DNA from: Allomuricauda ruestringensis DSM 13258
Lineage (GTDB): Bacteria; Bacteroidota; Bacteroidia; Flavobacteriales; Flavobacteriaceae
DNA length: 64,000 nucleotides
Assembly: GCF_000224085.1 (NCBI RefSeq)
Contig: NC_015945.1
Location: 1,871,501 to 1,935,500, forward strand
Direction: 5' to 3'
Part shown: positions 38,956 through 63,672 of the stretch, piece after piece
How the letters are laid out: each line of letters opens with the position of its first letter
Numbering within the stretch: the first letter of the stretch is position 1
The notes under the pieces: model-generated
Databases searched by the model: none
What the model saw: the letters and a program-made list of their open reading frames with translations, nothing else
What the model was told of the DNA's origin: nothing
Translations under genes and position numbers: made by a program

Positions 38956-39037
38956 GCGGGTATGGTGGAATTGGTAGACACGCCAGACTTAGGATCTGGT
39001 GCCGCAAGGCGTGGGGGTTCGACTCCCTTTACCCGCA
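38956..39037 (+). tRNA. Complete tRNA-Leu (anticodon UAG)
   Basis: 82 nt, class II. Acceptor GCGGGTA pairs with TACCCGC; D-arm GGTGGAATTGGTAGACACGC; anticodon stem CCAGA/TCTGG with loop CTTAGGA (UAG); variable arm GCCGCAAGGCG; T-loop TTCGACT with two G-T pairs in its stem; CCA not encoded. It lies inside the element, between the crossover core and the left arm-type repeat, so it came with the element. Confidence 0.93.
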
Positions 39038-39063
39038 CTTTTAAGTTTTCTGAAACTTACGTT

Positions 39064-40503: not shown

Positions 40504-40520
40504 GTGCAAATACATTGCAT
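40504..40520. promoter_or_regulatory. Operator copy 1, before the WYL gene
   Basis: GTGCA-AATACAT-TGCAT, 41 bases before the WYL start. First of five like palindromes; probable autoregulatory site. Confidence 0.65.
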
Positions 40521-40560: not shown

Positions 40561-41562
40561 ATGTCCAATAGCAAACATGCCCATTTACGATACAATATAT
40601 TAGATGAATGCTTCCGTAAAAGGTCATATAGTTTTGATGAACTTCTGGATGTAGTGAATAATAAATTAGAAACTCTTTTGAATGAAAATATTTCTATTCG
40701 AACCTTAAGAGAAGATTTAAAGATTTTCAGAGACAAAAAAAATGGTTTTGGTGCACCCTTGCCAGAAAAGGCTCGAATACTTAAATATTCCGATCCTAAT
40801 TTCTCTATTTCAAATAAACCTCTATTAGAGTACGAACAATATTTAATAGATGCAGCTCAACAGTTGTTAGAGCGATTTGAGAATCATCCCAAGTATGATA
40901 AATTAGCTGAGGCCTTAATAAAGTTTCAAGATGAGGAATACCAGCAAGAAAGTCAGTCAGCGCAAATATTATTTTATGACCATAATGATGAATATAAAGG
41001 AATAAACTTTTTAAAGCCAATGTATTTTGCTATTAAAAAGAAACAAGTGCTTGGAATCAAATTTCATGGGTTCATGGCGGATTCTTTTGAAAATTTTGAA
41101 TTTCATCCACATATTTTAAAACAGTATAATAGGAGATGGTTTGTTTATGGATTAAATAAAACAAAGAATGTTTCAAATTGGAGTATCCCATTGGATGACA
41201 GACTAGTTGATTTTGAAATCTTGGATGATAAAAAGTATATTGAATCCAATACTGATTGGGACGCTTATTTTAGAACCATGGTCGGTATTAGAAGGCAACA
41301 AGATCAAGTACCTCAAAAAGTTGTTCTGCGTTTCTATAATGGAAGAGAAGATTATTTTAAGACAAAACCATTTATACCGGATTATGATGAATTTTTTGAA
41401 GAAGAGAAAGAGGATCAGGTTTGGTTTGAATCAATAATAAACCTAGAACTGGTCCAACAATTATTATCGTTTGGGCAAGATGTTGAAGTTTTGGAACCAA
41501 AGGAATTAAAAGAACAAATAAGATTGCATTCTAAAACAATGAACAAATATTATTCGCATTAA
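40561..41562 (+). CDS. WYL-domain transcriptional regulator
   Basis: A 333-residue regulator. The N-terminal winged helix covers ~1-70 (YNILDECFRKRSYSFDELLDVV, then SIRTLREDLKIF). A WYL-type domain lies at ~140-230 (YKGINFLKPMYFAIKKKQVLGIKF, FHPHILKQYNRRWFVYGL) and a C-terminal extension after it. WYL repressors such as BrxR and CapW control BREX and CBASS defence loci by binding inverted repeats. Here five matching palindromes lie before the units of the cluster, so this is their likely controller. Confidence 0.85.
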   Translation: MSNSKHAHLRYNILDECFRKRSYSFDELLDVVNNKLETLLNENISIRTLREDLKIFRDKKNGFGAPLPEKARILKYSDPNFSISNKPLLEYEQYLIDAAQQLLERFENHPKYDKLAEALIKFQDEEYQQESQSAQILFYDHNDEYKGINFLKPMYFAIKKKQVLGIKFHGFMADSFENFEFHPHILKQYNRRWFVYGLNKTKNVSNWSIPLDDRLVDFEILDDKKYIESNTDWDAYFRTMVGIRRQQDQVPQKVVLRFYNGREDYFKTKPFIPDYDEFFEEEKEDQVWFESIINLELVQQLLSFGQDVEVLEPKELKEQIRLHSKTMNKYYSH

Positions 41563-41564: not shown

Positions 41565-41581
41565 GTGCGATTATATTGCAT
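41565..41581. promoter_or_regulatory. Operator copy 2, before the methyltransferase-kinase gene
   Basis: GTGCG-ATTATAT-TGCAT, 2 bases after the WYL stop and just upstream of a -7 element (41592-41599). Confidence 0.65.
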
Positions 41582-41591
41582 AAAATCAATC

Positions 41592-41599
41592 TACTTTTG
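41592..41599 (+). promoter_or_regulatory. -7 element of the methyltransferase-kinase gene
   Basis: TACTTTTG fits TAnnTTTG. A start near 41606 would give a leader of 13 bases to the ATG at 41619. The operator covers the -33 region. Confidence 0.55.
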
Positions 41600-41618
41600 T
41601 AAATCTCATATTGAAACA

Positions 41619-44120
41619 ATGCAAATGAATAAGAGTGATTATTCAAGAAAAGAATTAATAGGTCGGATTGGAAACCACATTTGGCAGTGTGCAAGTGTGA
41701 TAAGAAATACACGTTCTAACACGAACCTATATTTGTTACTTTATATTTTATCTGCTTATAAGGATGGTGTGCTTAATTTTTCGCCTAGAAATTATTCCGA
41801 TTGGAGCTTCAACCTTAAAAATGAAGATGAAAATTTATTTTATAGAGATATACAGAAAATATTTCACCCATTATTTGAAAGTCTTCATGAAAGGCAGATA
41901 GAAGAAATACTTCACATAATAAATGGTATTGACCTCGAACAACTAATTGACAATTTCAAAGAAGTCTTTGAATTTGTTTTAAATAAAATAATTGATTTTG
42001 ATAGAAAATATTCCAATGTATCCATTAATCCAGAGGAAATAAGTAAACTCATTATTGGGTTGGCTGATTTACCTAAGTTTTCAAATGTATACAACCCCTT
42101 TGCTGGTTTTGCTTCATTTGGAGTTTATCTTGAAGAGGGTCATATGTATTACGGTCAAGAAATTAATCCAAATACTTGGGCGATTGGACAGCTTAGGTTA
42201 AAAGCCCACTTGAATTGCTTCACACATAGGTATTCTCTTGCAGACTCTATAGAAAATTGGAATGACTTTCAAGATTTTGATTTAATAGTTGCCAGTCCGC
42301 CAATGAGGTTACAGCTAAAGAAGCACCAGTCTCATAATTCCATTTATACTAACCATAGAACTATTGAAGGTTTCCTTGTAGAAAAAGGAATGGAGACATT
42401 AAGGTATAGCAATAATGGTCAATTGATTGTTGTTTTCCCATTATCATTTCTTTTTAGTGGAGGTGCAGAGGGTAAACTTAAAAAACGTCTTGTTGATAAA
42501 AATTTAATTGATACAATTATAACTTTACCCTCCGGGCTCTTGTCTAATACAGTTATTCCTATTTGTGTCATCGTATTCAAAAACCATATTAAAAGACCTG
42601 GTTTTGTTAAAATGATAGATGGTTCAAGCTTTTATTATAAGGATAATCCAAAAACCAAAACTTTAAAGTACAAAGACCTTTTAATGCTCATTAAAGACGA
42701 TGTAGAAACCGAATTTCTTAGATATGTTAGCATTAAAGAAATTTATGAAAATGATTTTGATCTTTCTGTTAGTAGGTATTTCTTAGAAGATCTTGTAGGT
42801 TCTAAATTAACATCTTTTGCGCAAATAATAAGAGGAACAAGGGCTCCTATGAATGAGTCATTTAAACAAGTTCAGATACGTGATTTAAAAGATGATGTAT
42901 TTGACAGTGTATTGAGAAGTATTGAATTGGATTCAAAAATCGTTAAACGCGGTACATTTAGAATCATAAGCGAATCATGTCTGCTGATTGCAAACAAATG
43001 GAATACTCTTAAACCAACCTATTTCAAGTTTACCGGAGAGTCAATTGCGATTTCCCAGAATATCACAGCTTTAAAATTAAATGAAGATATTGTTCATCCT
43101 ATTTATTTAATAAATGAGTTTTCATCTGAATACGTAGAAAATCAAGTCGACAGCTATAGAGTTGGTTCGGTACAACCAATGCTACGAACAAAAGATTTAA
43201 AAAATATTGTGTTCAGAATACCTGATATGAAAGAACAAGTTGCTAAAGTTAGCGGCATAATCGAGCTTTCAGAGAGATTGAAAAAAATTGAGTCAGAGAA
43301 AGAATCTTTGTTGACTGGAATCAAAAAAGTGGAAACAGAAAGCTCAACTTCTTTGAGTCATATTTTAGGTAAACCATTACTTAGTATCGGGTCATCTTTG
43401 GAAATTATTAAGAATGCACTTACTAAGATTGACCCTAAATGGGAGAAACACTACTTATCTCAAAGTAGGGAATTTACATTGTCCGATGCTTTTGAATCCA
43501 TTTCCAAAAACGTAAAGTATATCCAAGAACTTGCAGATAGAAATACTTCAATGGTAAGTGTTTCAAATTTTGAACTCGAACCAATACATTTTCTGAAATT
43601 CCTATCTTCCTTTGTTAAGGACGAAAAGAAAAGTTTAAAAACCAATATTAGTCTTGAACTAGACATTCATGAAGACATTAAGAATCAAATGTCGAATCAA
43701 GTAATAATAAATGGGAATATACAGAAACTAAGAATATTGCTATTGAATTTACTCGATAATGCTAAAAACCATGCATTCAATGAAAATGATATTGCACATA
43801 AAATCAATATTGAGATTTTACCATTTACAGGTAATGCAAAAGAAGCTTCAATTCTAAATTATGATATTGATGATAAAAAGTCTTATGTGGAAGTTCGTGT
43901 TTCAAACACAGGGAAGTCTTTTCCTAAGGACTTTAAACTTGAAGATTATGTCCGAAAAAACTTTGCTGCTGGAAGCACGGGTAATAATGGATTAGGCGGA
44001 TATGAAGTTAATGAGATACTTAAAACCTTAAATTCAGGTAAAAACGCCTTAAATATAATTTCAAATATTCCGGATTCTGAATATTGTACGGTTGTATCTT
44101 TCATCCTTCCAATAATTTAA
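41619..44120 (+). CDS. HsdM-like methyltransferase / HsdS-like domain / histidine kinase fusion
   Basis: 833 residues from ATG 41619 (ATG 41625 also possible; the GTG at 41565 lies in the operator). Residues ~1-370 are HsdM-like: SAM-motif NPFAGFASFG (~159) and motif IV DLIVASPPM with Ser226 where HsdM has Asn. Residues ~385-550 resemble one half of HsdS (SVQPMLRTKDLKNIVFRIPDMKEQ). From ~575 comes a kinase core: H-box SHILGKPL (His581), N-box LLNLLDNAKNHAF (Asn714), VSNTG, and GNNGLGGYEVNEIL. It is followed after two bases by a receiver gene. I know no described system with this fusion. Confidence 0.8.
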   Translation: MQMNKSDYSRKELIGRIGNHIWQCASVIRNTRSNTNLYLLLYILSAYKDGVLNFSPRNYSDWSFNLKNEDENLFYRDIQKIFHPLFESLHERQIEEILHIINGIDLEQLIDNFKEVFEFVLNKIIDFDRKYSNVSINPEEISKLIIGLADLPKFSNVYNPFAGFASFGVYLEEGHMYYGQEINPNTWAIGQLRLKAHLNCFTHRYSLADSIENWNDFQDFDLIVASPPMRLQLKKHQSHNSIYTNHRTIEGFLVEKGMETLRYSNNGQLIVVFPLSFLFSGGAEGKLKKRLVDKNLIDTIITLPSGLLSNTVIPICVIVFKNHIKRPGFVKMIDGSSFYYKDNPKTKTLKYKDLLMLIKDDVETEFLRYVSIKEIYENDFDLSVSRYFLEDLVGSKLTSFAQIIRGTRAPMNESFKQVQIRDLKDDVFDSVLRSIELDSKIVKRGTFRIISESCLLIANKWNTLKPTYFKFTGESIAISQNITALKLNEDIVHPIYLINEFSSEYVENQVDSYRVGSVQPMLRTKDLKNIVFRIPDMKEQVAKVSGIIELSERLKKIESEKESLLTGIKKVETESSTSLSHILGKPLLSIGSSLEIIKNALTKIDPKWEKHYLSQSREFTLSDAFESISKNVKYIQELADRNTSMVSVSNFELEPIHFLKFLSSFVKDEKKSLKTNISLELDIHEDIKNQMSNQVIINGNIQKLRILLLNLLDNAKNHAFNENDIAHKINIEILPFTGNAKEASILNYDIDDKKSYVEVRVSNTGKSFPKDFKLEDYVRKNFAAGSTGNNGLGGYEVNEILKTLNSGKNALNIISNIPDSEYCTVVSFILPII

Positions 44121-44122
44121 TT

Positions 44123-45301
44123 ATGAATAAAGTATACAATGTGTTGTGGCTGGATGATGAGCATGATCATCCTGATATGGAGCCTTTTTTAATCCTTGCT
44201 GAGGATTCTGGTATTATATTAAAAGGATTTCGAAATCCTATTGAAGGATTTCGTGAACTTGAAGCAAATGTTAACCATTATGATGCAATCCTATTGGACG
44301 CTTTGTTTTTTGAACATGAAAATTCAGAAACCGTTAGTAAGAAAGGTTTGGGGACTTCTATAGCAAGGATTAATCAATTAAAAAATAGAAAGTTGTTCCC
44401 CTTTTTTGTTTTATCAGGCCAACCAACTTTTGTTGAAGCACAAAATGATATTTTAGAAGCTAATAACCTTAGATGTTATAACAAAAAAAAGCTTGAAGAT
44501 GTTAAGGAGCTTTTACAGAATATAAAAGCTGAGGCTGATAGGCAAATAGATTTACAAATCAAACATGACAATCAAAATCTCTTCAATTTGTTGGAAAGTT
44601 ATCCTGATTCATCTAGGGATACTTTTATTTCGGTTTTCAAAGGCTTGAAAGGTTTGAAAAGTGATTTTGAGGATCAACTGTATTTTACTCAATTAAGAAT
44701 AATATTGGAACAAATGTTTCGAAAAGCCAATGAAATTGGCTTGCTACACGATAGATGCGTGAAGGTTAAAGGAAGACAAGTGAATCTTACGGAGTCATGT
44801 CTTTTTTTATCAGGCTTGGACACAAAACATTTAGGCATCAGGTGTTCTGAAACTCACTTTCCAAAAGTAATTGCAAACCACGTAAAAAACATTATTCATA
44901 CAACAGGAGCTGCATCTCATGATGTCAATGTTGATATAAAAAAAAATATCGATGTTCAGAATTTAAGGAGAACTGTCAATACACCTAACTTGTTGTACTC
45001 ATTGACTTTTCAATTAATAGATGTTTTATTATGGTTTCATGGTTATGCAAAAGCAAACGATGATCAAGTGAGAAACAAATCTTTCTGGCAAGAATTTGAT
45101 TTCGATGAATATGGAAATAAATATCAATTTGAGGAGATAGCTTCCATTGCTCCAAATGGTTGGGGTCAAATAGAACTCAAAAACGGTTTTAGTGTTGGTG
45201 TTCCTAAAGATGAGATGGCCAAACTTAATTTAAAAGTTGGTGACAAAATCAAATTCTGGATTAGAAATTCATCAATTGCAAATGGTATCTCCAAGGTTTA
45301 G
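44123..45301 (+). CDS. Receiver-domain response regulator with unknown output domain
   Basis: A 392-residue protein. Residues 1-125 are a receiver: acidic pair Asp11-Asp12 in VLWLDDE, phospho-acceptor Asp59 in AILLDALF, Ser98 in FVLSGQ and Lys121 in CYNKK. The remaining ~265 residues are largely helical ([31 protein letters not shown]) and end in a small beta-rich part ([33 protein letters not shown]) resembling an OB- or SH3-like barrel. There is no DNA-binding helix-turn-helix. It is the partner of the upstream kinase. Confidence 0.78.
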
Positions 45302-45304: not shown

Positions 45305-45321
45305 GTGCAATTATCCCGCAC
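45305..45321. promoter_or_regulatory. Operator copy 3, before the DUF2130-hsdM-hsdS unit
   Basis: GTGCA-ATTATCC-CGCAC, 3 bases after the receiver gene stop, upstream of a perfect -7 (45332-45339). Confidence 0.65.
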
Positions 45322-45331: not shown

Positions 45332-45339
45332 TAAATTTG
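45332..45339 (+). promoter_or_regulatory. -7 element of the DUF2130-hsdMS unit
   Basis: TAAATTTG, perfect TAnnTTTG, 27 bases before the ATG at 45366. The operator covers its -33 region. Confidence 0.6.
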
Positions 45340-45365: not shown

Positions 45366-46646
45366 ATGAGCAAAAACGCAGAAGTTAAGTGCCCAAATTG
45401 TAAAGAAGTGTTTAAGGTTGATGATTCTGTATATACGGATATTGTTAAGCAAGTACGAGACCAACAATTTCAGGATGAAATAGTGAAGCGGTTAGAAATA
45501 GCAGAAAAGGAAAAGCAGTCTGCTATTGAATTAACAGAGTCTAAAATTAAAGGTGAATACCAAGAATTGTTGGCTCAGAAAAATCAAGAAATTAGTGACC
45601 TAAAGCTAAAAAGCAAGGAAGAACTAGTTTTAGAAGTAACTAAAAAGGAGGATAAGATCAGAGATTTACAATCTCAATTGGAGAATGCCGAAACCCAGAA
45701 AAAATTGGAGGTCTCTGAAGCGCTGAAATCTATTGAAAAAGAACGGGATCAACTCAAAAATGATTTAAAACTTAAAGATTCCGAAAAGGAAAATCTGGAA
45801 AAATCACTTCAAGCAGATTTTAAAAGAGAGCTTGAGTCAAAAGAACAGATTATTAAATATCGTGACGAAGAAATAGAGCGTTTAAAAGATTATAAGCAAA
45901 AACTTTCCACAAAGATGTTGGGTGAAACACTGGAACAGCATTGCGAAATTGAGTTTAACAAACTTAGAGCTACAGCTTTTCAAAGCGCATACTTCGAAAA
46001 AGATAATGATGCTTCTGCTGGGTCAAAAGGGGATTACATTTTTAAAGAAACTGACCATGATGGCAATGAAATTGTGTCCATTATGTTTGAAATGAAAAAT
46101 GAAAATGATCAGACATCCACTAAAAAAAAGAACGAAGATTTTTTTGCGAAACTGGATAAGGACAGAAATGATAAAGGATGTGAATATGCTGTACTAGTTT
46201 CTTTATTGGAGGCAGACAATGAGTTTTATAATACAGGTATCGTTGATGTCTCCTATAAATATGAAAAAATGTACGTTATTCGTCCTCAGTTTTTCATTCC
46301 AATGATTACCCTATTACGAAATGCCGGAATGAAGTCCCTAGCGTATAAAGCGGAATTGAATACCGTTAGAAACCAAAATATTGACATTACCAATTTTGAA
46401 GAAAAAATTGAAACTTTCAAAACAGGTTTTGCAAGAAATTACGATTTAGCCAAAAGACAATTTGGAGAAGCTATAAAAGAGATTGATAAAAGTATATCGC
46501 ATCTAAATAAAATTAAAGATGCACTCACTTCATCTGAGAGAAACTTACGTTTGGCTAATGATAAAGCGGAGGAATTGACCATTAAAAAACTCACCTATAA
46601 CAACCCAACGATGAAACAAAAATTCGACAACTTAAACAACCAGTAG
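45366..46646 (+). CDS. DUF2130 protein (zinc ribbon, coiled coil, nuclease-like)
   Basis: A 426-residue protein. Zinc-ribbon half CPNCKEVF at residue ~9, a long coiled coil (~30-190), then the DUF2130 domain, whose [10 protein letters not shown]...[11 protein letters not shown] has the Asp...Glu-x-Lys pattern of PD-(D/E)XK nucleases. A frame opening at 45237 runs through the operator and promoter, so ATG 45366 is taken. It lies 3 bases before hsdM, as a restriction-associated accessory protein; its activity is not known. Confidence 0.78.
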
Positions 46647-46649: not shown

Positions 46650-48287
46650 ATGATAACCGGAGAAATAAAATCCCAAATAGACCAAATATGGAACACCTTC
46701 TGGTCAGGTGGCGTTACTAATACAATTACAATAGTAGAGCAGTTAACCTATTTGATTTTCATTAAGGATTTAGACGAAACTGAAACGCGAAATGAGCGTA
46801 TGGCAAAACGTTTAAGCAAAACGTACACACCCATTTTTGGTCCTAACCAACAGGATTTCCGTTGGAAAAATCTAAAAGAAATGGATGTGACTCAACGCCA
46901 TGCAATTTTCAATAATTCGGTGGATGGTATTTTTCCGTTCATTAGAAGTTTGGGTGGCGAAAAAAGCTTGTTCAGTACATATATGAAAGATGCTTCTTTC
47001 GGTATTAATAAAGCCAGTACGTTAGACCAGGTTATGGAAAAGTTAGAACGTTTGGATATGTCGAATCAGGACATAAAAGGAGATATTTATGAGTACTTAT
47101 TGTCTAAGTTGGAAGGTGGTGGAACAGCCGGACAATTTCGTACACCTCGCCACATTATCAAACTTATGGTAGAAATGATGCAACCATCTCTTGATGACGT
47201 TATATGTGATCCATCTACCGGTACTGCTGGCTTTCTGGTGGCTGCTAAAGAATACATAGATAAGCATTACAGAATAACTGATTTAGACAAACATAGTGAG
47301 CATATAAATAAGCGTATGTTTAATGGTACCGAGTTTGATGCTACTATGCTGCGTATTGCTAGTATGAATCTTTTTTTACATGGCGTTGAAGAGCCTAATA
47401 TTGTTGATGTAGATGCTGTAAGTAAAGATAATACGGTTAGTGATGCCTATACCCTTATTTTGGCCAATCCACCCTTTAAAGGGACAATAGATAAAGAAAG
47501 TATCGCGCCAAGTTTGAGTAATGTGACTAAAACAACGAAAACAGAGTTACTCTTTTTAGCTTTGATGTTACGCCAACTTAAAAAAGGTGGTCGTGCTGCG
47601 GTTATTGTACCAGATGGCGTGCTTTTTGGTAGCGGTAAAGCCTTTAAAAGTATCCGTAGTGAAATTGTAAAGAATCATAAATTAGATGGTGTGATTTCCT
47701 TGCCCAGTGGTGTGTTTCAACCTTATTCTGGGGTAAGTACTGCAATCTTACTATTTACCAAAACTGACAATGGAGGTACCGATATGGTGTGGTTTTACGA
47801 TATGAAAGCTGATGGAAAAAGCCTAGATCAAAAACGTAACCTTATTGTAGACGAAAGCATTTTTAACGAGTTTGCATTTGCCAAAGACTTAACACCCGAA
47901 AAATTAGCACAACTAGCACAAGCTCACGATAACTTTAATCTACCACAGGTTCTCGACCATTACCGCTATTTAAAAAGCGATTACTTTGGTAAAATGCACG
48001 ATAGTAACGGCGGTCTTTTAAATGTGAAAGACATTCCGGGAAACCTTGGCTCCGACAATTTTTTGGATGGTACATGCTCGCATAATTTTTCTGATCGCTC
48101 AAGTCAAAGTTTCTTGGTCCAGGTTAAAGAAATAGATGATAATGATTGGGATTTATCAATAAATCGATACAAAAAAATTGTTTATGAAGAAGTAGATTAT
48201 GATTTGCCTGAAGTGATTTTAGAAAGAATTAAAAAACTAAACAGCGAGAGAAGTGAAATATTAAAACAACTTTCTAAAATTAATTAA
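46650..48287 (+). CDS. hsdM: Type I restriction-modification methyltransferase subunit HsdM
   Basis: A 545-residue adenine-N6 methyltransferase subunit. The N-terminal HsdM helical domain (QIDQIWNTFWSGGVTNTITIVEQLTYLIF) is followed by GQFRTPRHIIKLMVEMM. The SAM site is DPSTGTAGFLVAAKEY and the catalytic motif IV is LANPPFKG, intact. It works with HsdS to methylate and with HsdR to restrict. hsdS begins one base after its stop. Confidence 0.95.
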   Translation: MITGEIKSQIDQIWNTFWSGGVTNTITIVEQLTYLIFIKDLDETETRNERMAKRLSKTYTPIFGPNQQDFRWKNLKEMDVTQRHAIFNNSVDGIFPFIRSLGGEKSLFSTYMKDASFGINKASTLDQVMEKLERLDMSNQDIKGDIYEYLLSKLEGGGTAGQFRTPRHIIKLMVEMMQPSLDDVICDPSTGTAGFLVAAKEYIDKHYRITDLDKHSEHINKRMFNGTEFDATMLRIASMNLFLHGVEEPNIVDVDAVSKDNTVSDAYTLILANPPFKGTIDKESIAPSLSNVTKTTKTELLFLALMLRQLKKGGRAAVIVPDGVLFGSGKAFKSIRSEIVKNHKLDGVISLPSGVFQPYSGVSTAILLFTKTDNGGTDMVWFYDMKADGKSLDQKRNLIVDESIFNEFAFAKDLTPEKLAQLAQAHDNFNLPQVLDHYRYLKSDYFGKMHDSNGGLLNVKDIPGNLGSDNFLDGTCSHNFSDRSSQSFLVQVKEIDDNDWDLSINRYKKIVYEEVDYDLPEVILERIKKLNSERSEILKQLSKIN

Positions 48288-48288: not shown

Positions 48289-49449
48289 ATGAAATTAGAA
48301 AATTGTGTTGATATACTTTCTGGATATGCTTTTAAATCCAAACTATTCAATACTGAGGGTATAGGTATCCCTATAATTCGAATTAGAGACATTACTTCTA
48401 ATAGCGTTTCAACTTATTATGATGGAGATTACAAAGATGAGTATTTAATCTCTAATGGAGACTTGTTAATTGGAATGGATGGAGCATTCAATTTAATAGA
48501 GTGGCAAGGAGGAAAAGCTATTCTTAATCAACGAGTTTGCAAAATTACTCCTAGAGAAGATAAAGTGGATAAAGACTTTGTAAAATATTTAGTTCCAAAA
48601 TCTTTAAAACACATTGAGGACAAAACACCTTTTGTTACGGTTAAGCATCTTTCTGTTAAGAAAATTAGAGAAATAGAATTACCTAAATTGACTCTAAAAA
48701 TGCAAAAGCGTATTGCTCAAATATTAGATGATGCCGCAACTTTACATGATAAAACCCGACAACTATTATCAGAGTATGATCAACTTGCACAATCTATTTT
48801 TCTGGATATGTTTGGAGATCCAGTGATTAATCCTATAGGTTGGGAAACAAAAACCATAGAAGAGCTTGTCTTGCCAGTTAAAGGGTCAATTAAGCGCGGC
48901 CCATTCGGTGGAGCATTGAAAAAAGAAATTTTTGTTGAAGAAGGTTATCTGGTATATGAGCAATATCATGCTCTAAACAATGACTTTAATTTTGAGAGAT
49001 ATTATATAACCGAAAAGGATTTTAAAAGATTGGAGTCTTTTGAAGTTAAGCCGGGAGATATAATTATAAGTTGTTCAGGTGTGTATTTAGGTAAACTGGC
49101 AATTGTTCCAAATAATGCTAAAAAAGGTATTATTAACCAGGCGTTGTTAAAATTGACATTGGACGAAAATAAGATGTCAAAGGAATTTTTTGTTTTTCAT
49201 TTTACCCAGGAAAATTTTCGAAATAAGTATTTTGGGGCAGATAGAGGTGCAGGAATACCAAATTTTCCGCCGATGAAAAGCTTTAAACAGTTTCCTTTTA
49301 TTTATCCACCTATTAATTTACAAAATCAGTTTATGGACAAGTTAATTTTAATAGAGCAACAAAAGGCACTTGCAAAACAAGAGCTAAAGGAAACTGAAGA
49401 TTTATTTAATTGTCTATTACAAAAAGCATTTAAAGGACAGTTGGTTTGA
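48289..49449 (+). CDS. hsdS: Type I restriction-modification specificity subunit HsdS
   Basis: A 386-residue DNA-recognition subunit. Two target-recognition domains (~1-145 and ~185-345) each end in the typical helix (KLTLKMQKRIAQILDDAATLHDKTRQLL; PPINLQNQFMDKLILIEQQKALAKQEL). The first domain is short for the family. Together they define a bipartite site that cannot be predicted here. It is translationally close to hsdM. Confidence 0.92.
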   Translation: MKLENCVDILSGYAFKSKLFNTEGIGIPIIRIRDITSNSVSTYYDGDYKDEYLISNGDLLIGMDGAFNLIEWQGGKAILNQRVCKITPREDKVDKDFVKYLVPKSLKHIEDKTPFVTVKHLSVKKIREIELPKLTLKMQKRIAQILDDAATLHDKTRQLLSEYDQLAQSIFLDMFGDPVINPIGWETKTIEELVLPVKGSIKRGPFGGALKKEIFVEEGYLVYEQYHALNNDFNFERYYITEKDFKRLESFEVKPGDIIISCSGVYLGKLAIVPNNAKKGIINQALLKLTLDENKMSKEFFVFHFTQENFRNKYFGADRGAGIPNFPPMKSFKQFPFIYPPINLQNQFMDKLILIEQQKALAKQELKETEDLFNCLLQKAFKGQLV

Positions 49450-49525: not shown

Positions 49526-49542
49526 CTGCAAATTCACTGCAC
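49526..49542. promoter_or_regulatory. Operator copy 4, before the cold-shock/DUF3825 unit
   Basis: CTGCA-AATTCAC-TGCAC, 11 bases upstream of a perfect -7 (49553-49560). Confidence 0.6.
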
Positions 49543-49586: not shown

Positions 49587-50819
49587 ATGACGGGCAAAAT
49601 TAAATTTTATAATAACCAAAAGGGTTATGGCTGGCTTTACACCGAAAAGCCAGAAGAAGAGTGTTTTTTTCACATATCTAATGTAGAAGGCGAATTGCAA
49701 GATTTAATATCATGCAATAAATACGAAGATGAACCTTTAACTTTTGTAACTAAACCTTCGACTACACATACAGATAGAATGGTTGCTGAAAATATAAGGT
49801 TAGATCTTAGTAAAAGAAATGTAGGTTTTGTCGATGAATACGATAAAGGTTATGGTAGAATTATATGTGCTAACACAGATAAAAATTTCTTCTTTCACCA
49901 CTCTAAATTAGTAGGGTCTGAAAATCGTTATATAAGAGTGAGTAAAGGTGACCCGGTCATTTTTACGGGTAGTGAAAATGATAAAGGGCTTGAAGCTCTA
50001 GAAGTAGTGGTAGTGGATAACAGGTCAAGTCTAGAAAAGTTTGCTGAATTTGATAATTTTTATGAATCTCTATCTCAATTAAAGGTAGTGGCTCAAGAAG
50101 AAGATTGGGATTACATTAAGAATAGAACAGGGTATGATCCTGTGCTTTATAGTTATATTAATCATACATTTAATAGAATAGAATCACAGGACAAGTTGGT
50201 CCTTGGTAAATCTTCTGTAGGAAAAGAATATGCAATATTTAACACAGGTTTGGCGACCAAGTTTCAAGATGATGTTTATGCATATTTTCAGAAGTTAGAT
50301 GTTATAGATTCTGATAGAAAATGGAAAATAAAAGAACCGCAATATCGTTTTCTAGAATTCAATACAGATCAGTCCCATTTTCGTAAGTATCTACCTAAAT
50401 CACCAGAAATCGCAACTTATTTTTCGGAAGCGGAAATAACAGAACTTATTTATGATTATTCGCTAAATGGTGGTGAAATAATTATTGATAGGGAACATAT
50501 AATTTCTAGGAGAAGTAGATTTCCTTCGGAGATTAGAGAGCTTAACGATGAAAAGTTTTTAGATACTATTAAAAAAGGTATTGAATTAGCTCTAAGAAGA
50601 ATAAAAAGAAATTATAAAACTGCAATCCCTCATTATTATGATGGTAAGATTCAGTTTTTGATGCCGTTATGCTTAGTTTCAAAGTCTGAGGCTGATTTAG
50701 CTCTAGTTGTAAATAAAGAAGAGTATGTATACAAGGCTCATACAGTGTTAACGCTGGATCAAGCTTATAATAATGCTCGTTTACTCGCTAAACCTGACAG
50801 AGAATGGTTAAATCCATAA
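49587..50819 (+). CDS. Double cold-shock domain protein with DUF3825
   Basis: A 410-residue protein. Two cold-shock-like OB folds: KIKFYNNQKGYGWLYTEK with CFFHIS (~1-70), and VGFVDEYDKGYGRIICA with FFFHHS (~75-150), both holding the aromatic RNA/ssDNA-binding patches. Residues ~210-400 fit DUF3825 (YAIFNTGLATKFQDDVYAYF). A nucleic-acid binding role is likely; the catalytic role, if any, is unknown. It sits between hsdS and hsdR with its own operator. Confidence 0.75.
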   Translation: MTGKIKFYNNQKGYGWLYTEKPEEECFFHISNVEGELQDLISCNKYEDEPLTFVTKPSTTHTDRMVAENIRLDLSKRNVGFVDEYDKGYGRIICANTDKNFFFHHSKLVGSENRYIRVSKGDPVIFTGSENDKGLEALEVVVVDNRSSLEKFAEFDNFYESLSQLKVVAQEEDWDYIKNRTGYDPVLYSYINHTFNRIESQDKLVLGKSSVGKEYAIFNTGLATKFQDDVYAYFQKLDVIDSDRKWKIKEPQYRFLEFNTDQSHFRKYLPKSPEIATYFSEAEITELIYDYSLNGGEIIIDREHIISRRSRFPSEIRELNDEKFLDTIKKGIELALRRIKRNYKTAIPHYYDGKIQFLMPLCLVSKSEADLALVVNKEEYVYKAHTVLTLDQAYNNARLLAKPDREWLNP

Positions 50820-51405: not shown

Positions 51406-54400
51406 ATGGCTTCAAATTTCCAGTTTCTAAGAGATGAATTCAAAATATTGTTTGAGAGAGCCTCTAGGGCTGAGAGTTTTACAATAACCGACCCTCGTAC
51501 TTCCTTAATATATGCTCGTATGGCATTGGAAGAAGCTGTTCAATGGATGTATGCCAACGATGAGGAACTTGAGCCTCAATACGATACTACGCTTCATAAC
51601 CTTCTTGTTCAAAATGCATTTAAGGAGCAATTTAACCACAAACTGTATGGAGAGTTATTTATAATTAAAAAAGCTGGGAATTTGGCTACTCACGGAAAAG
51701 CTGTGAGTGATATTGATTCACACAAAGCAATTGAGGCTCTATTTTATTTTACTAAGTGGTTTGTTAAGTCATATAGTCAAAATGGGGTTCCGCATATTGG
51801 TATTTTTGATTTTCATTTGTTACCAAAGGAAGGCAGTGATGTTCTGTCTAAAAAGCAGACAAGAGAATTAGAGCAGGAACTTGAAGAGAAATTAACGGTC
51901 AATAAGGAGGAACTAAGTCGTAAAGAAAAAGAAAGACAAGAACTCATACAGAGCAATGCGCTTTACAAAAGGCAAATTGAGGCATTACAGTCGCAAATTG
52001 AGGCCAATAAGGTAATAGCTAACCAGCAAGATGAGGTTCAACACCCAAGAAATGAAATAGAGACTCGAAGATACCTTATTGACGTCTCGCTTAGAGAAGC
52101 CGGTTGGAATTTAGATGGCGTAAATGATAAGGAGTATTTGGTTCAGTATATGCCAGAAAGTACGAATAAAACGAAAACTGGTAAAGTGGACTACGTACTC
52201 TGGGATGATGATGGTCTCCCACTCGCTCTTGTGGAAGCAAAGAGCACCCTAGTAAGTGCTACAAAAGGAGAGAATCAAGCCCAACTCTATGCAGATTCCT
52301 TAGAAAAGATGTTTGGACGTAGACCGGTTATGTATTACACCAATGGGTATGAAACATATTTGTGGGATGATGGGTTTTATAAACAATCGAGAAGGGTATT
52401 TGGTTTTTATACAAAAGCTGAACTACAAACAGTCATGTTCAGAAGAACCCACCGAAAAGATATTCGTACTGCACCAATCGATACTAACATTGTGGAACGG
52501 TTTTATCAGATACGGTCTATAAAAAGCATAGCGGAACATTTTGCCGGCAATGATAAAAGAGGAGGTGGGCTTATTGGAACAAATCGCGGTGCCTTATTAG
52601 TGTTGGCAACAGGGACAGGAAAGACGCGTACTTCAATTGCTTTTTCAAAATTGCTACTGGAGTGCAACTGGGCAAAGCGTATATTATTTTTAGCGGATAG
52701 AATAAGTTTGGTTGAACAGGCCAAGAGAAATTTTGTAAAATTCTTGCCACAACACGCCAGTGTAAATCTTTTGGAGGAAAAAGATAACCCTGATGCTAGA
52801 ATAGCGTTTTGTACCTATAACACTATGATGGGGCTAATTGATAATTCAAAGGAAAAAGAGACTCGATTCTATGGAGTAGGTCATTTTGATTTGGTTATTA
52901 TTGACGAGGCACATAGATCTATTTATAAGAAATATCAGGCCATTTTTGAGTATTTTGATGCACTCTTTCTTGGGTTGACGGCCACGCCTTTTGATCGAAT
53001 TGATAAAAATACATATTCCGTATTTGGTTTGCCGGATAAAATGCCAACTGATGCCTATACTTTCGAAGAAGCTGTATCCAATAAACATTTGGTGCCGTAC
53101 AAATCAATAGAGTTGCCTACTAAGTTTTTACGTGAAGGTATTCGTTATGACGAGTTGTCAGATCAGGAAAAGGAAGAATTTGAACGGGAAATACTTGATG
53201 GAGAAGAAGCAACAGGCAACGAATGGGTTTCTTCAACTGAACTGAACCAATGGCTTTTTAACAAACCAACGACGATTAAAACGTTGCGTTATATTTTGGA
53301 AAATGGAATTAAAAAACGTGGCGGGGAAGAATTGGGAAAGACAATATTTTTTGCAAAAAACAGAAAACACGCCCAATTTTTAAAAGACACTTTTTTAGAA
53401 TTAGACAAAGAGTTATTCGGGAATGAATATGTAAAAGTTATTACGCACAGTGAGCCAAAAGCAAAGGAGTTTATTAATCGATTTTGTGATGAGGAAATGG
53501 ACCGGTTGCCACAGATAGCTATATCTGTAGATATGATGGATACCGGAATTGATGCTCCCAGTTGTGTAAACTTGGTGTTTTATAAACCCGTTAAATCATA
53601 TGCCAAATTTTGGCAGATGATTGGCAGGGGGTCCAGATTAAGACCAAATCTATTTGGAGTTGGAAAGGATAAGACTCACTTTTTAATATTCGATTTATGC
53701 CAAAATTTTGAATTTTTCAAGCAAAATCCTGAAGGAGTCGATGCGAGTCCCCAAAAGAGTTTGTCTGAAATTGTTTTTGGTTTACGGTTACAATTAGCAG
53801 AATATTTAAAGAGTCCTCAATTTAAGGATGAGGTAGAGTTGACAGCATATAGGATGGAAATATTAGATGGGTTGTATAAGGATATTTCAAATTTAAATCC
53901 TGATCGATTCGATGTGAAAATGAAACTGGAAGTTGTAAATGAGTTTGGCAATAACAACCGTGAAATATGGAGCCACCTTAACAAACAAGAAGTCAGTAAA
54001 ATTGAAAGTGAATTGGCTCCATTGGTGAAGCCCAGAAAAGGAGATTCAGACTTATCAAGATTTTATGATAAATTGCTTTATTCACTTATCATTAAGAGAC
54101 TTGAAACTCCAAATGTTGAAGAATTTACCAATGGCTTTATAGTCCCCATTTCAAAAGTTACTACCACTTCTAGAAAGTTGTTGAAGAAAACAACCATTCC
54201 TGCGGTTAAAGAAAAAGAGTCACTGATTAAATTACCATTGGAAGAAGGGTTCTGGAAAACTGAAGGTATAGTTCATTTAGAAAAACTTAGGAAAGGAATT
54301 AGGGAATTAGTAAAATATATTGATCCTGAAGACCAACGCTATGTGACCACAGATTTTGAAGATGTCATCTTGGAGGACAAAATTGTCGTTAGTGATATGG

Positions 54401-54891
54401 TCAGTGAGCCAGCTATTACTATGACATCGCCTTTTCAAAATAATGTCTATAGATTGGAACAACTCATTAGGGAAAATGAAAACCATATAACAATCCAAAG
54501 AATTAGAAAGGGAAAAGTCATAACTATTAAAGAACTTTCAGCTCTGGAAGATTTGCTTTTCAGTAATGGAATTAAAAAGGATTCTTTGGAGAAAGAATTG
54601 GGTGGCAAACTAAACCTGGTTTCATTTATAGTTGGTTTAATTGGCTTAAGTAAAGAGAAAGTAGATTCTGCTTTCGCCCAATTTGTTAATGATTACAAAC
54701 TTAATTCTGTTCAAATAGAGTTTTTGGAAACTATAAAGAAATTCTTAACATCCAATGGTAAATTAGAACCAAGTAAGCTTTACGACTCTCCATTTAAAAA
54801 TTATCATAGTTTAGGTATTGAGGGTGTGTTTAATGAGCAACAGGCAGATACTATATTTAAAATTGTAAAAGACTTCAATCAAGCAAATTAA
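51406..54891 (+). CDS. hsdR: Type I restriction enzyme HsdR with N-terminal DUF4145
   Basis: An 1161-residue translocase-nuclease subunit. Residues ~1-130 are DUF4145-like (DPRTSLIYARMALEEAVQWMY); ~150-215 coiled coil; nuclease domain with KVDYVLWDDDGLPLALVEAKST (Asp...Glu-x-Lys); SF2 motor with Walker A LATGTGKTRTSI, DEAH box IIDEAHRS, LTATP and motif VI QMIGRGSRL; C-terminal EcoEI_R-type region. It completes the RM system with the hsdM and hsdS upstream. Confidence 0.93.
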   Translation: MASNFQFLRDEFKILFERASRAESFTITDPRTSLIYARMALEEAVQWMYANDEELEPQYDTTLHNLLVQNAFKEQFNHKLYGELFIIKKAGNLATHGKAVSDIDSHKAIEALFYFTKWFVKSYSQNGVPHIGIFDFHLLPKEGSDVLSKKQTRELEQELEEKLTVNKEELSRKEKERQELIQSNALYKRQIEALQSQIEANKVIANQQDEVQHPRNEIETRRYLIDVSLREAGWNLDGVNDKEYLVQYMPESTNKTKTGKVDYVLWDDDGLPLALVEAKSTLVSATKGENQAQLYADSLEKMFGRRPVMYYTNGYETYLWDDGFYKQSRRVFGFYTKAELQTVMFRRTHRKDIRTAPIDTNIVERFYQIRSIKSIAEHFAGNDKRGGGLIGTNRGALLVLATGTGKTRTSIAFSKLLLECNWAKRILFLADRISLVEQAKRNFVKFLPQHASVNLLEEKDNPDARIAFCTYNTMMGLIDNSKEKETRFYGVGHFDLVIIDEAHRSIYKKYQAIFEYFDALFLGLTATPFDRIDKNTYSVFGLPDKMPTDAYTFEEAVSNKHLVPYKSIELPTKFLREGIRYDELSDQEKEEFEREILDGEEATGNEWVSSTELNQWLFNKPTTIKTLRYILENGIKKRGGEELGKTIFFAKNRKHAQFLKDTFLELDKELFGNEYVKVITHSEPKAKEFINRFCDEEMDRLPQIAISVDMMDTGIDAPSCVNLVFYKPVKSYAKFWQMIGRGSRLRPNLFGVGKDKTHFLIFDLCQNFEFFKQNPEGVDASPQKSLSEIVFGLRLQLAEYLKSPQFKDEVELTAYRMEILDGLYKDISNLNPDRFDVKMKLEVVNEFGNNNREIWSHLNKQEVSKIESELAPLVKPRKGDSDLSRFYDKLLYSLIIKRLETPNVEEFTNGFIVPISKVTTTSRKLLKKTTIPAVKEKESLIKLPLEEGFWKTEGIVHLEKLRKGIRELVKYIDPEDQRYVTTDFEDVILEDKIVVSDMVSEPAITMTSPFQNNVYRLEQLIRENENHITIQRIRKGKVITIKELSALEDLLFSNGIKKDSLEKELGGKLNLVSFIVGLIGLSKEKVDSAFAQFVNDYKLNSVQIEFLETIKKFLTSNGKLEPSKLYDSPFKNYHSLGIEGVFNEQQADTIFKIVKDFNQAN

Positions 54892-54905: not shown

Positions 54906-54922
54906 GTGCAGTTACTCTGCAT
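54906..54922. promoter_or_regulatory. Operator copy 5, before the SF2-like gene
   Basis: GTGCA-GTTACTC-TGCAT. A near-consensus -7 (TTTATTTG, 54933-54940) follows. A second palindrome, GCAGTG...CACTGC (54940-54963), lies just before the ATG. Confidence 0.6.
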
Positions 54923-54965
54923 AATTTTGCCCTTTATTTGCAGTGTAATTCTTAATTCACTGCTT

Positions 54966-56723
54966 ATGACTGCATATCAAAAACATTGGAACGCTGAAAT
55001 CGAAAATTTGATAACTCAATTGGATGCTCCAAATTCTCTCGAAGAGAATATTGTGGACACGCTTAACAATTGTAAAAGAACTGGAATTTTTCCAAATCAA
55101 ATCATCAATGCTTTAAGATTGGGACTTTCCATTAAGGAAGGGAATCAAAATATGGCATTTGTGGCATCCATGCAGAGTGGAAAATCTGGTACGATATACT
55201 TTCTGTGTAATTATGTACTTCCCGCAATTGGCATGGTAAATGAATATGAGTCCATTCTATTTGTTACAAGCATGAGGGATACAGATTTGTATGATCAAAA
55301 CTGTAGGGTTCTACAGAAGGAGTACTATGATGCTGTAAATGGTGAAATGAAACCATCGAACATTAAAGTGATGAAAATGAGCGATTTTTTTAATCATCCA
55401 AACCCTCATAAGGTCGTAAATGAATTTGATGTTCAGTTGATAGTTCGTGATGAGGATCAATACGGGTGTGGAGAGGCTTCAAGTTTTCAATCTGCATTCT
55501 TTGCAGAATTAAGAAGACGCATGCCAGATATTAAATTGTTAGCAGTTAGTGCCACGCCATATGATATTTTAGATGCACAATATACAGGTGCGGCAGATGT
55601 TGATGTTATAGTCGGTGTTAGACCTCCAGAATATTATGGTATCACAGAAATGTTAGAAGATGGATTAATAGAAGACTTGCCCGAAAACTTTAGACCGCTT
55701 CTATCTCAAGGTAGCGATGATGATTTGGTTTATACCATTCATCCACTGGTTAATGTTTATATGAACCACCTTTGTGATTTTAAAGATGGTCTTGGGATAA
55801 TTAGGGAATCTAACACATCAAGGGCATTAGAACTTCGAAGTCTTTTGAAAACAGATTTCAAAAATAGATGTAAAATTATTGCAATTGGGTCAGATGTGGC
55901 ATGTGATTATGGTATCAATGAAGGAATAAAGGAAGTGTCTAGTCTAATCATGAAAAGGGGTAAGCGGGTTGTTTTGATAATTGTTCAAGCACTTACTGCC
56001 GGTAAGGATTTGGGCATTCTCAAGGAAAAAGTGCGATTCGGAATGGAGCCAAGGGACAAACAATTAGCCAATGGTGCCCAAGGAATTACTGGAAGATTCT
56101 GCGGATACCATACTAATCGTGATTTTAAGTTATTGGCTAGTGTTGATTTGTTAAGACATTATGCGGAATTTGAACAGGATTGGGAAATTTTTGCAGATGA
56201 GACATGGAGGAATGGACTATACAACAGCAATGTATTTGGGTTAAGTACTCATACTAGATTTCAAAAGACACAATCTGAAGGTTTCTTTACACCAATTATT
56301 GAAATAATAGAATTGACTTTTGATGAAATCATAACCGAGGAAGGCAGGGAAAGATTAAACTTTATCGATGATGAAGCCTATCATAGACTGCTGGACTTTT
56401 TTGAGCCAACATTTTATAACGTTGCAACCAAGGGAACAAGGTTTAAACAAAAGGGTGTCACTGTTCGTATTGCTTCTAGTTACAATTCTCATAGTGATAG
56501 AGTTGCTAAAAATTGGAACTGCAATTTGGATAGTGATTTTGGAAATATTTTCTTTAAAAAGAACCCATATGAATATGGAATCTTAATAAGTAATTTCCCT
56601 ACTCATGATGGAAGAAATAATATAGGATTTACTGGTATAAAAATTATACGTTCAGGCAGCAAAGAATGGCGCAACCAAGAAACTGATCTCCTGAATAAAT
56701 CAATGTATAATCCAGAAGATTAA
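54966..56723 (+). CDS. SF2-like helicase/ATPase of the defence cluster
   Basis: A 585-residue protein. Walker A is ASMQSGKSGTIYFL; the Walker B position reads LIVRDEDQYG (DEDQ in place of DEAD/DEAH); LLAVSATPYDIL is motif III; AQGITGRFCGYH is motif VI with the arginine finger. The Z1 ATPase signature is not seen. The C-terminal ~180 residues are unassigned. Starting at 54906 would put the start in the operator. Role unknown; its own operator ties it to the cluster. Confidence 0.7.
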   Translation: MTAYQKHWNAEIENLITQLDAPNSLEENIVDTLNNCKRTGIFPNQIINALRLGLSIKEGNQNMAFVASMQSGKSGTIYFLCNYVLPAIGMVNEYESILFVTSMRDTDLYDQNCRVLQKEYYDAVNGEMKPSNIKVMKMSDFFNHPNPHKVVNEFDVQLIVRDEDQYGCGEASSFQSAFFAELRRRMPDIKLLAVSATPYDILDAQYTGAADVDVIVGVRPPEYYGITEMLEDGLIEDLPENFRPLLSQGSDDDLVYTIHPLVNVYMNHLCDFKDGLGIIRESNTSRALELRSLLKTDFKNRCKIIAIGSDVACDYGINEGIKEVSSLIMKRGKRVVLIIVQALTAGKDLGILKEKVRFGMEPRDKQLANGAQGITGRFCGYHTNRDFKLLASVDLLRHYAEFEQDWEIFADETWRNGLYNSNVFGLSTHTRFQKTQSEGFFTPIIEIIELTFDEIITEEGRERLNFIDDEAYHRLLDFFEPTFYNVATKGTRFKQKGVTVRIASSYNSHSDRVAKNWNCNLDSDFGNIFFKKNPYEYGILISNFPTHDGRNNIGFTGIKIIRSGSKEWRNQETDLLNKSMYNPED

Positions 56724-57646: not shown

Positions 57647-57676
57647 GGCGTGATATATTTAAATTGATTTACGGGA

Positions 57677-58024: not shown

Positions 58025-58034
58025 GTCAATGGAT

Positions 58035-59240: not shown

Positions 59241-59372
59241 AGAAATGTGTATTAAAGGGTTCGAGAATTATCCACCATATTAAGGCCACATTTCCATGTA
59301 TCCCACCATGGGCACTTGTACTTTATTGATGCTGTTTTGTATTTTACAATCGGATTATTGTGGGAAACACCC

Positions 59373-59380
59373 TATATTTG
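59373..59380 (+). promoter_or_regulatory. -7 element of the XRE regulator gene
   Basis: TATATTTG, perfect TAnnTTTG. The predicted start (about 59386) coincides with the ATG at 59385, so the message may be leaderless or use the ATG at 59394. Confidence 0.55.
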
Positions 59381-63620: not shown

Positions 63621-63670
63621 CTTAGGATCTAGTGCCGCAAGGCGTGGGGGTTCGACTCCCTTCACCCGCA
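63621..63670 (+). pseudogene. 3' half of the split tRNA-Leu(UAG)
   Basis: It begins with the 13-bp core and continues through variable arm, T-arm and acceptor CACCCGC plus discriminator A. TCTAG and CACCCGC pair with CTAGA and GCGGGTG of the 5' half at 38881, not with the intact tRNA-Leu. It has no promoter of its own in view. Confidence 0.88.
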
Positions 63671-63672
63671 CA

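Follow-up and report, generated by a model that had tools for sequence, protein, structure and literature searches.

Two adjacent genes in the window, the 64,000-nt stretch of DNA analysed here, encode a methyltransferase-like sensor fused to a histidine kinase and a receiver protein that belongs with it; we named the two proteins FUS and RR. The fusion is a genuine family and not a single case, with its phospho-acceptor His in all 120 of the best relatives and at 74 of 75 loci. RR is encoded directly downstream of FUS in 72 of the 75, and the kinase and receiver domains covary strongly (Mantel rho 0.84 over 72 loci, a value reached by 0 of 1000 permutations). The partnership of kinase and receiver proposed in the earlier, sequence-only reading is therefore borne out as one evolutionary unit. 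Our preferred reading, offered tentatively, is that FUS and RR form a cytoplasmic two-component defence relay which acts as a guard or decoy for the neighbouring restriction system. All coordinates below are window positions, and all features lie on the + strand.

Architecture of FUS and RR

FUS (41619..44120, with its ATG at 41619 or 41625) combines in one 833-residue chain the HsdM-like, HsdS-like and kinase parts that had been read from its sequence. The HsdM-like domain (41619..42785) contains motif I as NPFAGFASF, a QEIN motif and SPPM as motif IV. It is followed by a single HsdS-like target recognition domain, or TRD (42786..43223, boundaries from the structure model), and by a spacer helix leading from the TRD to the kinase (43227..43340, from the secondary structure of the model), the end of which (residues 566-575) was modelled with a pLDDT below 50. 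The predicted structure has the fold of type I M subunits, HsdM included; the catalytic (N/D)PP(Y/F/W) signature of HsdM, on the other hand, is SPPM in the FUS of the window. Across the family motif IV is canonical (NPPF/Y) in 37 of 75 FUS proteins and non-canonical in 38. When the same loci are compared, it is canonical in 25/45 FUS versus 45/45 neighbouring HsdM proteins of ordinary length (Fisher p 1.2e-7). The SAM-motif residues Asn157 and Glu179 are invariant in 83 FUS rows, an invariance that is partly built in, since a motif I pattern had been used to retrieve some of the loci. The FUS of this genome is probably a clamp fold that is no longer an enzyme. Some of its relatives could methylate DNA, because about half of the family keeps the canonical NPPF/Y; S/TPPF may also remain active. 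In NCBI several relatives are named N-6 DNA methylase and one histidine kinase domain-containing protein. In two variant relatives (L131 and L181) the match to the FUS profile starts only at position 271 or 391 and motif I is unrecognised, while the TRD, the kinase and RR are retained. Parts of the M/TRD region are also matched by 29 viral loci at 21-30% identity, none of them past query residue 584.

The kinase core is complete, as had been claimed, and its key residues proved to be conserved across relatives. The DHp helices (43350..43556) carry the phospho-acceptor His581 at 43359-43361, and the HATPase (CA) domain (43572..44117) carries the G-boxes and the N-box Asn714 at 43758-43760. The N-box Asn is present in 120/120 best relatives and 72/75 loci, and two of the three exceptions are gaps in the alignment; the second G-box was itself one of the two patterns by which FUS loci were found. 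In HisKA-type kinases an acidic residue directly follows the phospho-His. Just 2 of 75 FUS proteins have Asp or Glu there.

RR (44123..45301, 392 aa) starts two bases after FUS. Its receiver domain (44123..44488) is as full as had been expected, with the Asp pair, the phospho-acceptor Asp59 (44297-44299; Asp in 72/72 loci), the Thr/Ser, Lys121 and the (beta-alpha)5 fold. Next comes a helical output domain (44540..45082) with Arg192 and His266 (His codon 44918-44920), each invariant in 72 of 72. An S1/cold-shock-like OB domain (45119..45298) ends the protein; it was recognised through PF22707, which 17 of 88 RR relatives match, and through CspA (0.0038 by profile), and it probably binds nucleic acid. 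Profile searches with the window RR and its 88 relatives recognised no DNA-binding helix-turn-helix, and those with the RRs found no PNP or other effector domain. The helical domain matched no known effector family; a search with it returned 43 proteins of 189-323 aa, none carrying a Pfam label, and the matches listed by Foldseek and VIA for RR are to the receiver domain. As for the HEPN motif Rx4-6H, the window RR reads TTGAASH around the invariant His266, with Arg absent at that distance. Weak HEPN hints came from 14 short RRs, one of which matches DUF4145 (E 0.057) and two AbiJ_NTD4 (best 0.0031).

The defence island and its probable regulator

Judged from sequence, FUS and RR sit on a mobile defence island bounded by 51-bp tRNA-Leu repeats. 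One att-like repeat lies within the 3' end of tRNA-Leu (38988..39038) and the second, with 2 mismatches, beyond a tyrosine recombinase (63621..63671). The restriction-modification (R-M) genes come after FUS and RR, with no third signalling gene in the window: a DUF2130 protein (45366..46646, profile match 4e-90) and, all by profile match, the HsdM (46650..48287), HsdS (48289..49449) and HsdR (51406..54891) of a type I system. Sister islands carry, at the corresponding position, pairs of an AAA protein and a protein of ~330 aa. AriA is among the matches of the AAA proteins tested (from L123 and L124); we have not used these pairs as evidence of PARIS, because their ~330-aa members match neither AriB nor DUF4435.

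Profile searches and neighbourhood mining of the kind suggested earlier recovered the expected domains and placed HsdM near the pair in 54 of 66 evaluable loci, mostly among the first genes after RR. In 11 of the 66 no HsdM, HsdS or HsdR was recognised nearby, so that control of a type I system cannot be the sole function of the pair. Neither FUS nor RR shows significant covariation with the HsdM or HsdR next to it (rho between -0.06 and 0.12), and the FUS TRD does not covary with the recognition domains of the adjacent HsdS (rho -0.08 and -0.03, 49 loci). The FUS TRD is conserved to much the same degree as the other parts of FUS and is not hypervariable, whereas the HsdS domains are not conserved in this way (median pairwise identity 0.33 versus 0.18, 23 loci). 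FUS is therefore not tuned to the methylation site of its neighbour, and the earlier suggestion that it senses the neighbour's own mark is not supported.

Upstream of FUS lies a gene for a BrxR-like regulator (40561..41562) with both WYL and WCX domains. Its WCX match (38.5 bits) is over the cut-off, its WYL match (15.2 bits) is under the Pfam cut-off of 21.8, and PADLOC WYL matches at 2.5e-17. From the arrangement of predicted sites, transcription of the island is probably switched by this regulator through a putative operator common to four transcription units. In Bacteroidota the predicted operator reads TRTGCA-N7-TGCAYA and lies 11 bp upstream of the -7 box, with TTTG at 15 bp; it recurs at loci of FUS-RR, type I R-M, BREX and Druantia III. 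In the window it stands upstream of FUS (TGCGATTATATTGCA, 41566..41580, with the -7 box TACTTTTG at 41592-41599), before the DUF2130-HsdM-HsdS genes (45306..45320, with TAAATTTG at 45332-45339), before the CSD-DUF3825, DUF1643 and HsdR genes (49527..49541), and before a 605-aa ORF after HsdR whose GTG start overlaps the site (54907..54921). An operator-like palindrome upstream of the WYL gene (40505..40519) has no TTTG at the usual distance. The link between regulator and operator has its exceptions. Among 30 loci, 23 WYL matches without FUS have the site in 9 cases and lack it in 14, and at five loci (L022, L038, L050, L058 and L180) the site precedes FUS with no WYL match in the stretch examined. 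In the promoter and terminator scan, promoter-like sites were no commoner than in shuffles.

The operator also bears on the proposal that the receiver switches R-M transcription. RR has no recognised helix-turn-helix, the palindromic sites stand at promoters both with and without FUS, and the operator goes with WYL; the proposal is not sustained. FUS itself was once attractive as the operator binder, because an interrupted palindrome is what two paired TRDs would recognise; this is disfavoured by the operator standing beside WYL in genomes without a full-length FUS match.

What the pair may sense

In the guard or decoy relay that we tentatively prefer, FUS would be one half of a type I methyltransferase complex, with one M and one TRD and the fold of a DNA clamp. 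Pairing through the DHp helices would bring together two M and two TRD in an M2S shape. A clamp that is occupied or distorted would signal through the spacer helix to the DHp helix, His581 would be phosphorylated, and the phosphate would pass to Asp59. The receiver would then free a non-transcriptional output, the helical domain with Arg192/His266 and the S1/CSD-like domain, perhaps acting on RNA or single-stranded DNA and stopping growth or phage. The likeliest trigger would be a phage anti-restriction protein that mimics DNA, and the next likeliest foreign DNA itself. Anti-restriction proteins of this kind inhibit type I enzymes irrespective of the sequence these recognise, and would therefore suit a sensor that accompanies type I R-M without sharing its specificity. 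In a fuller version, which we regard as doubtful, the pseudo-methyltransferase kinase is an integrated decoy to which phage mimics bind instead of the genuine type I enzyme or in addition to it, the relay aborts the infection, and the units of the mobile island are under one WYL operator. There are precedents for sensing anti-restriction proteins in PrrC, PARIS and Ronin, to judge from the accessible parts of the reports (PMC12409349, PMC9122126). Against a guard stand the 11 of 66 loci with nothing nearby to guard, the canonical motif IV in 37/75 FUS and the scarcity of the usual acidic residue after the His (2/75), as do the low pLDDT at the end of the spacer helix and the failure of the helical domain to match a known effector family.

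A somewhat unlikely alternative is that FUS senses foreign or unmodified DNA, its TRD dimer sitting on a conserved bipartite site while the SAM/adenine pocket reads methylation and RR triggers defence. A TRD as conserved as the remaining FUS would fit, as would the NPPF/Y kept in 37/75 and the invariant Asn157 and Glu179, an invariance partly due to how the loci were chosen; but motif IV is SPPM in the window and non-canonical in 38/75, and a mark needs a writer, yet the neighbouring HsdM and HsdS change freely. More unlikely still is that the pair regulates the type I enzyme next to it through protein contact, a form of restriction alleviation on entry into a new host or upon DNA damage. The frequent closeness of HsdM (54/66) and the position of the window's type I system on an island that has att-like repeats at a tRNA are what such contact would lead one to expect, while the missing covariation of FUS/RR with HsdM/HsdR and the 11 loci without HsdM/S/R are not; nor does the helical domain match the DUF4145 region at the N-terminus of HsdR (hhalign probability 2.5%).

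The retained SAM pocket raises the thought that FUS might sense the SAM pool, for example a phage SAM lyase or SAH build-up. Motif I and Glu179 are indeed conserved while motif IV drifts, but the two variants without a recognised motif I keep TRD, kinase and RR, and the TRD would be left unexplained; we consider this reading improbable. The least probable of all, and to our minds very improbable, is that FUS is simply an active methyltransferase that carries a GHKL ATPase tail, RR being an unrelated accessory: the NCBI name of several relatives and the 37/75 with NPPF/Y speak for it, and the near-invariant phospho-His and receiver Asp, the kinase-receiver rho of 0.84 and the eroded motif IV against it.

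Known systems and significance

In the literature searched, we found no description of a methyltransferase-derived sensor on a histidine kinase with a receiver partner. FUS shares the M subunit and TRD fold of a type I methyltransferase (HsdM2-HsdS) and differs from it in that a single M and a single TRD are joined to a kinase, and in its eroded motif IV. Detocs is a three-gene system whose best characterised example uses a PNP effector. The present pair combines, in two genes, an M/TRD sensor with a helical plus S1/CSD output in place of a known effector such as PNP; what Detocs does provide, in the part of its report available, is a case of two-component signalling in phage defence (PMC11249213). 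The HEF_HK and Response_reg_2 families (PF19191, PF19192; PMC8011034) likewise pair a gene for a soluble kinase-like protein with one for a receiver-like protein next to R-M genes, also in Bacteroidetes. In the available part of that report, most of the kinases have an N-terminal HATPase_c_3, the R-M genes are mostly type II, and no methyltransferase or TRD is described (PMC8011034). FUS and RR have no PF19191/PF19192 match at E <= 0.1, and neither is among the 25 families listed, out of 32, for 88 RRs. CapW is a WYL regulator comparable to BrxR. The regulator of the window resembles BrxR, as partially consulted, in being a WYL protein of a defence island with operators repeated at more than one promoter (PMC9122601); it differs from both in its putative TRTGCA-N7-TGCAYA operator, found in Bacteroidota and common to several types of defence locus. 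PrrC-EcoprrI, PARIS and Ronin are second-line systems sensing phage anti-restriction proteins, PrrC through a type I system and Ronin, as proposed, through modification subunits; in the sections of the reports at hand no histidine kinase with a receiver is described for any of them, whereas the FUS sensor is a single fused protein (PMC12409349, PMC9122126).

The putative WYL operator supplies a sequence criterion by which defence-island regulons in Bacteroidota could be predicted, and the conserved family offers clear mutants (His581, Asp59, Arg192 and His266) together with candidate triggers for screening FUS, namely DNA, SAM, Ocr and ArdA. Histidine kinases are grouped according to the signal that they detect. 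A kinase that senses through the clamp of a restriction methyltransferase would, if true, tie a very common bacterial defence to phospho-signalling; it would explain how cells could notice that their restriction has been disarmed, and the relay may report virus attack on restriction enzymes.

The fusion protein and its receiver partner

Protein searches (E <= 0.001) returned 515 matches to FUS (41619-44120, plus strand, 833 aa), in which an HsdM-like part and one HsdS-like TRD are joined to a histidine kinase (HK), the lower-scoring of which may include ordinary M subunits, and 206 matches to RR (44123-45301, plus strand), the response regulator with a receiver domain (REC). The sequence-only reading had pointed to His581 and Asn714 of the kinase and Asp59 of the receiver, and these residues are conserved. 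Among the best 120 of the 515 FUS relatives the phospho-His and the N-box Asn are each kept in 120/120; among the best 120 of the 206 RR relatives Asp59 is found in 119, the remaining one being a gap, and Lys121 in all 120. A further sample of 74 loci, with flanks of up to 10 kb, came from scanning a one-genome-per-species collection (84,980 species) for two peptide patterns, motif I and the second G-box, so that those two are conserved partly through the selection, which does not apply to the His, the N-box, motif IV or RR. In these loci and the window the phospho-His is retained in 74 of 75 FUS proteins (the exception is L073), and Asp59, Lys121, Arg192 and His266 are each present in 72/72 RRs.

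RR lies directly 3' of FUS in 71 of the 74 loci and in the window; L015 and L035 run into the contig edge, and L073 is without a recognised RR. The FUS frame of L021 (L021:9956-13493) is interrupted, with 658 aa followed by a 110-aa ORF and then an intact RR. The record titles are mostly Bacteroidota, with one Fibrobacter, one Balneolaceae and one Leptospiraceae metagenome bin. Full-length FUS matches occur in at least 5 of 199 genomes of the window's family (G000, G098, G034, G179, G013), a sixth (G174) matches in two pieces of one frame, and a seventh (G040) carries a variant matching over the C-terminal half only; these are lower bounds, few candidates per genome having been scored. RR has a match in 13 of 395 genomes of the class, and there is one RR in the organism's own genome. 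Searches of an open-access library brought up no description of the pair. As far as the available text of each paper goes, the R-M-associated kinase/receiver pair of PMC8011034 differs from FUS-RR, and the Schlafen-kinase fusions near BREX in PMC12839542 are likewise not this pair.

Type I restriction as company

The commonest gene order is WYL, FUS, RR, (DUF2130), HsdM, HsdS, variable genes and HsdR, where WYL is a BrxR-like regulator (40561-41562 in the window). Three Myroides plasmid records carry FUS at 27.6% identity, one of them in the order WYL-FUS-RR-HsdM-HsdS-two genes-HsdR. Neighbours were assigned by our own clusters, which may miss diverged R-M genes, and were counted in those 66 of the 75 loci whose downstream flank reaches 7 kb or more; nine loci were excluded from the count. 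Of the 66, 54 have HsdM, 52 HsdM and HsdS, and 39 all three. None of the three was recognised in 11 of the 66 (L012, L023, L027, L031, L039, L052, L053, L059, L067, L073, L074). The pair thus favours type I R-M company without requiring it. In L059 cytosine-methylase-like genes stand in its place, and in L039 FUS-RR is followed by two genes (clusters c11 and c12) resembling those that PADLOC calls DruH and DruE in L128. WYL-FUS-RR of L012 adjoins a HerA-domain (DUF87) gene, with no R-M gene recognised in the 10 kb downstream. In nine loci, one of them the window, RR is followed by the DUF2130 protein (45366-46646), and in eight of the nine HsdM comes next; in L130 the protein stands directly after WYL.

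Pairwise identities over the loci were compared by Mantel tests with 1000 permutations. Correlations reached by no permutation join HK with REC (rho 0.84), FUS_MT, the methyltransferase-like part, with REC (0.55) and HK with the RR helical domain (0.39), all over 72 loci, and FUS_MT with the FUS TRD (0.77, 75 loci). No significant correlation (p within 0.06-0.86) was obtained with the neighbouring genes: HsdM gave 0.05 with HK and 0.09 with FUS_MT (45 loci) and 0.11 with WYL (41 loci); HsdR gave 0.11 with FUS_MT, -0.06 with the RR helical domain and 0.12 with REC (28 loci); and the two HsdS TRDs gave -0.08 and -0.03 with the FUS TRD (49 loci). The R-M genes cohere among themselves (HsdM-HsdR 0.90, 25 loci; HsdM-first HsdS TRD 0.29, 41 loci), and WYL is loosely linked to FUS over 59 loci (0.37 with FUS_MT; 0.18 with HK, p 0.014). 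Judged by these identities, FUS-RR is one evolutionary unit and the R-M system a separate, freely exchanged one.

A mobile island and its operator

The pair sits on an integrated island: 24.6 kb, with a tyrosine recombinase (minus strand, 62205-63419) at their end, are bracketed by att-like direct repeats of 51 bp with 2 mismatches, one formed by the 3' end of tRNA-Leu (38988-39038), the other at 63621-63671. Taken from the tRNA end, a stretch of 25 bases that reaches 4 bases beyond the repeat has a single copy in the genome. A CSD + DUF3825 protein (49587-50819), under the island operator, lies upstream of DUF1643 and HsdR. The 605-aa protein at 54906-56723 has no Pfam match over cut-off, and since its GTG start overlaps an operator, its true start is probably further downstream. 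The remainder (57299-61974) has, on the minus strand, a HEPN protein (58035-59240) and two 115-aa ORFs, and further an HTH_3 gene (59316-59786), an AbiEii-like nucleotidyltransferase (60074-60550) and a weak PDDEXK_4 match (60961-61974).

The pattern TGCRANTANNNYGCA has three copies in the window, all of them at junctions between genes of the FUS cluster; the 0.04 expected is descriptive only, the pattern being derived from the very sites counted. TTTG is the end of the Bacteroidetes -7 element TAnnTTTG, and in 58 of the 75 loci (59 sites) FUS is preceded by TGC-N9-GCA with TTTG following it at exactly 15 bp. The best upstream site is mismatched in ten more (L005, L014, L024, L029, L030, L031, L033, L040, L067, L070; model scores 16.8-31.8), and upstream of FUS there is no convincing one in L023, L027 (masked), L053, L054 (contig edge), L069, L073 and L074. 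The 74 loci and the window contain 353 TGC-N9-GCA sites; 35 have a TAnnTTTG at a distance of exactly 11 bp, and of those 35, 23 lie either at FUS or immediately past RR. A loose pattern has 13 matches in the organism's genome against 4 for a reversed control; six of the 13, sorted by eye, have the stricter TGCR...YGCA form, four of them within the FUS cluster. Of these four, three precede FUS (41566), DUF2130-HsdM-HsdS (45306) and the CSD-DUF3825 gene leading to HsdR (49527), and the fourth is at the ORF that follows HsdR (54907). The one at 45306 is weak (below 15 against the model trained on FUS sites); the equivalent position has a site in eight DUF2130 loci, window included.

The WYL family search gave 30 loci, seven beside FUS or a variant and 23 without it. 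Within 4-kb stretches nine of the 23 have a site and 14 none, and the 14 include all of the 12 most divergent WYLs (scores of up to 363 bits). In longer stretches, examined for 13 of the 23, the site is no more than about 20 bp from the end of WYL in eight (L122, L123, L124, L125, L126, L128, L129, L130), lies elsewhere in the island in two (L127, L133) and is absent from three (L132, L134, L135). From such loci without FUS, the site appears to go with WYL; as a counter-case, L022, L038, L050, L058 and L180 have it before FUS and no WYL in the stretch examined. WYL is probably the transcriptional switch of the window's cluster.

PADLOC recognises Druantia III proteins in L128, and in L129 it recognises BrxA, BrxB and BrxC; L122 and L126 are called Druantia III, and L130 BREX, by likeness only, and L123, L124, L125 and L133 have an AAA protein with a gene of ~330 aa. 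The WYL operator of the window thus also stands ahead of Druantia III, BREX and AAA-pair genes in other genomes of the family (L122-L130), as an operator that defence islands share. Three more similar sites, ~260 bp apart, lie on the opposite strand of a FUS island, at L185:8578-9098 (orientation reversed), with no ORF above 120 aa listed between them.

What the fusion may sense

Motif I of FUS reads NPFAG(L)ASF, and an alignment of 83 rows shows no variation at Asn157, Pro158 or Glu179. A canonical motif IV is kept by 37 of 75 FUS proteins, and the window has SPPM instead; where a neighbouring HsdM measures 450-620 aa (45 loci), the motif is canonical in 25 FUS proteins against all 45 HsdMs (Fisher p 1.2e-7). 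Since the SPPF and TPPF forms may remain catalytic, this amounts to erosion of the motif and is no proof of lost catalysis. Relatives with an N-terminal HARE-HTH (L131:2608-5091 by Pfam; L181:2372-4966, L182:3205-5982 and L183:3195-6008 by similar N-terminus only), of 827-937 aa with RRs of ~300 aa, retain TRD, kinase and RR; the methyltransferase part is hardest to recognise in L131 and L181, whose matches to the FUS profile start only at positions 271 and 391, respectively.

From fold and helices, a DHp-mediated dimer of FUS would rebuild the clamp of two M and two TRDs, and helix 535-572 (831-aa numbering) could relay the signal towards DHp; model residues 566-575 have pLDDT under 50. No helix-turn-helix was recognised in RR. 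Its helical domain, with Arg192 and His266 invariant, matches DUF4145 and AbiJ_NTD4 weakly, and the S1/CSD-like end, which short RRs (280-323 aa) do not have, suggests nucleic-acid binding.

Median pairwise identity, over the 23 loci also having HsdR out of 41 with FUS, RR, HsdM and HsdS, is 0.33 for the FUS TRD, 0.37 for its MT part, 0.24 for its kinase and 0.18 for each HsdS TRD. A DNA sensor with a fixed motif would also fit the conservation of the FUS TRD. The fold matches of FUS include Ocr- and ArdA-bound type I complexes (7eew, 7bst, 7bto) as well as DNA-bound ones, and the presence of the former merely reflects which structures were solved. A protein that tracks type I R-M, ignores its specificity and has lost catalytic constraint presents the pattern expected of a decoy for anti-restriction proteins. 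PrrC, PARIS and Ronin set a precedent for the detection of such proteins (PMC12409349, PMC9122126).
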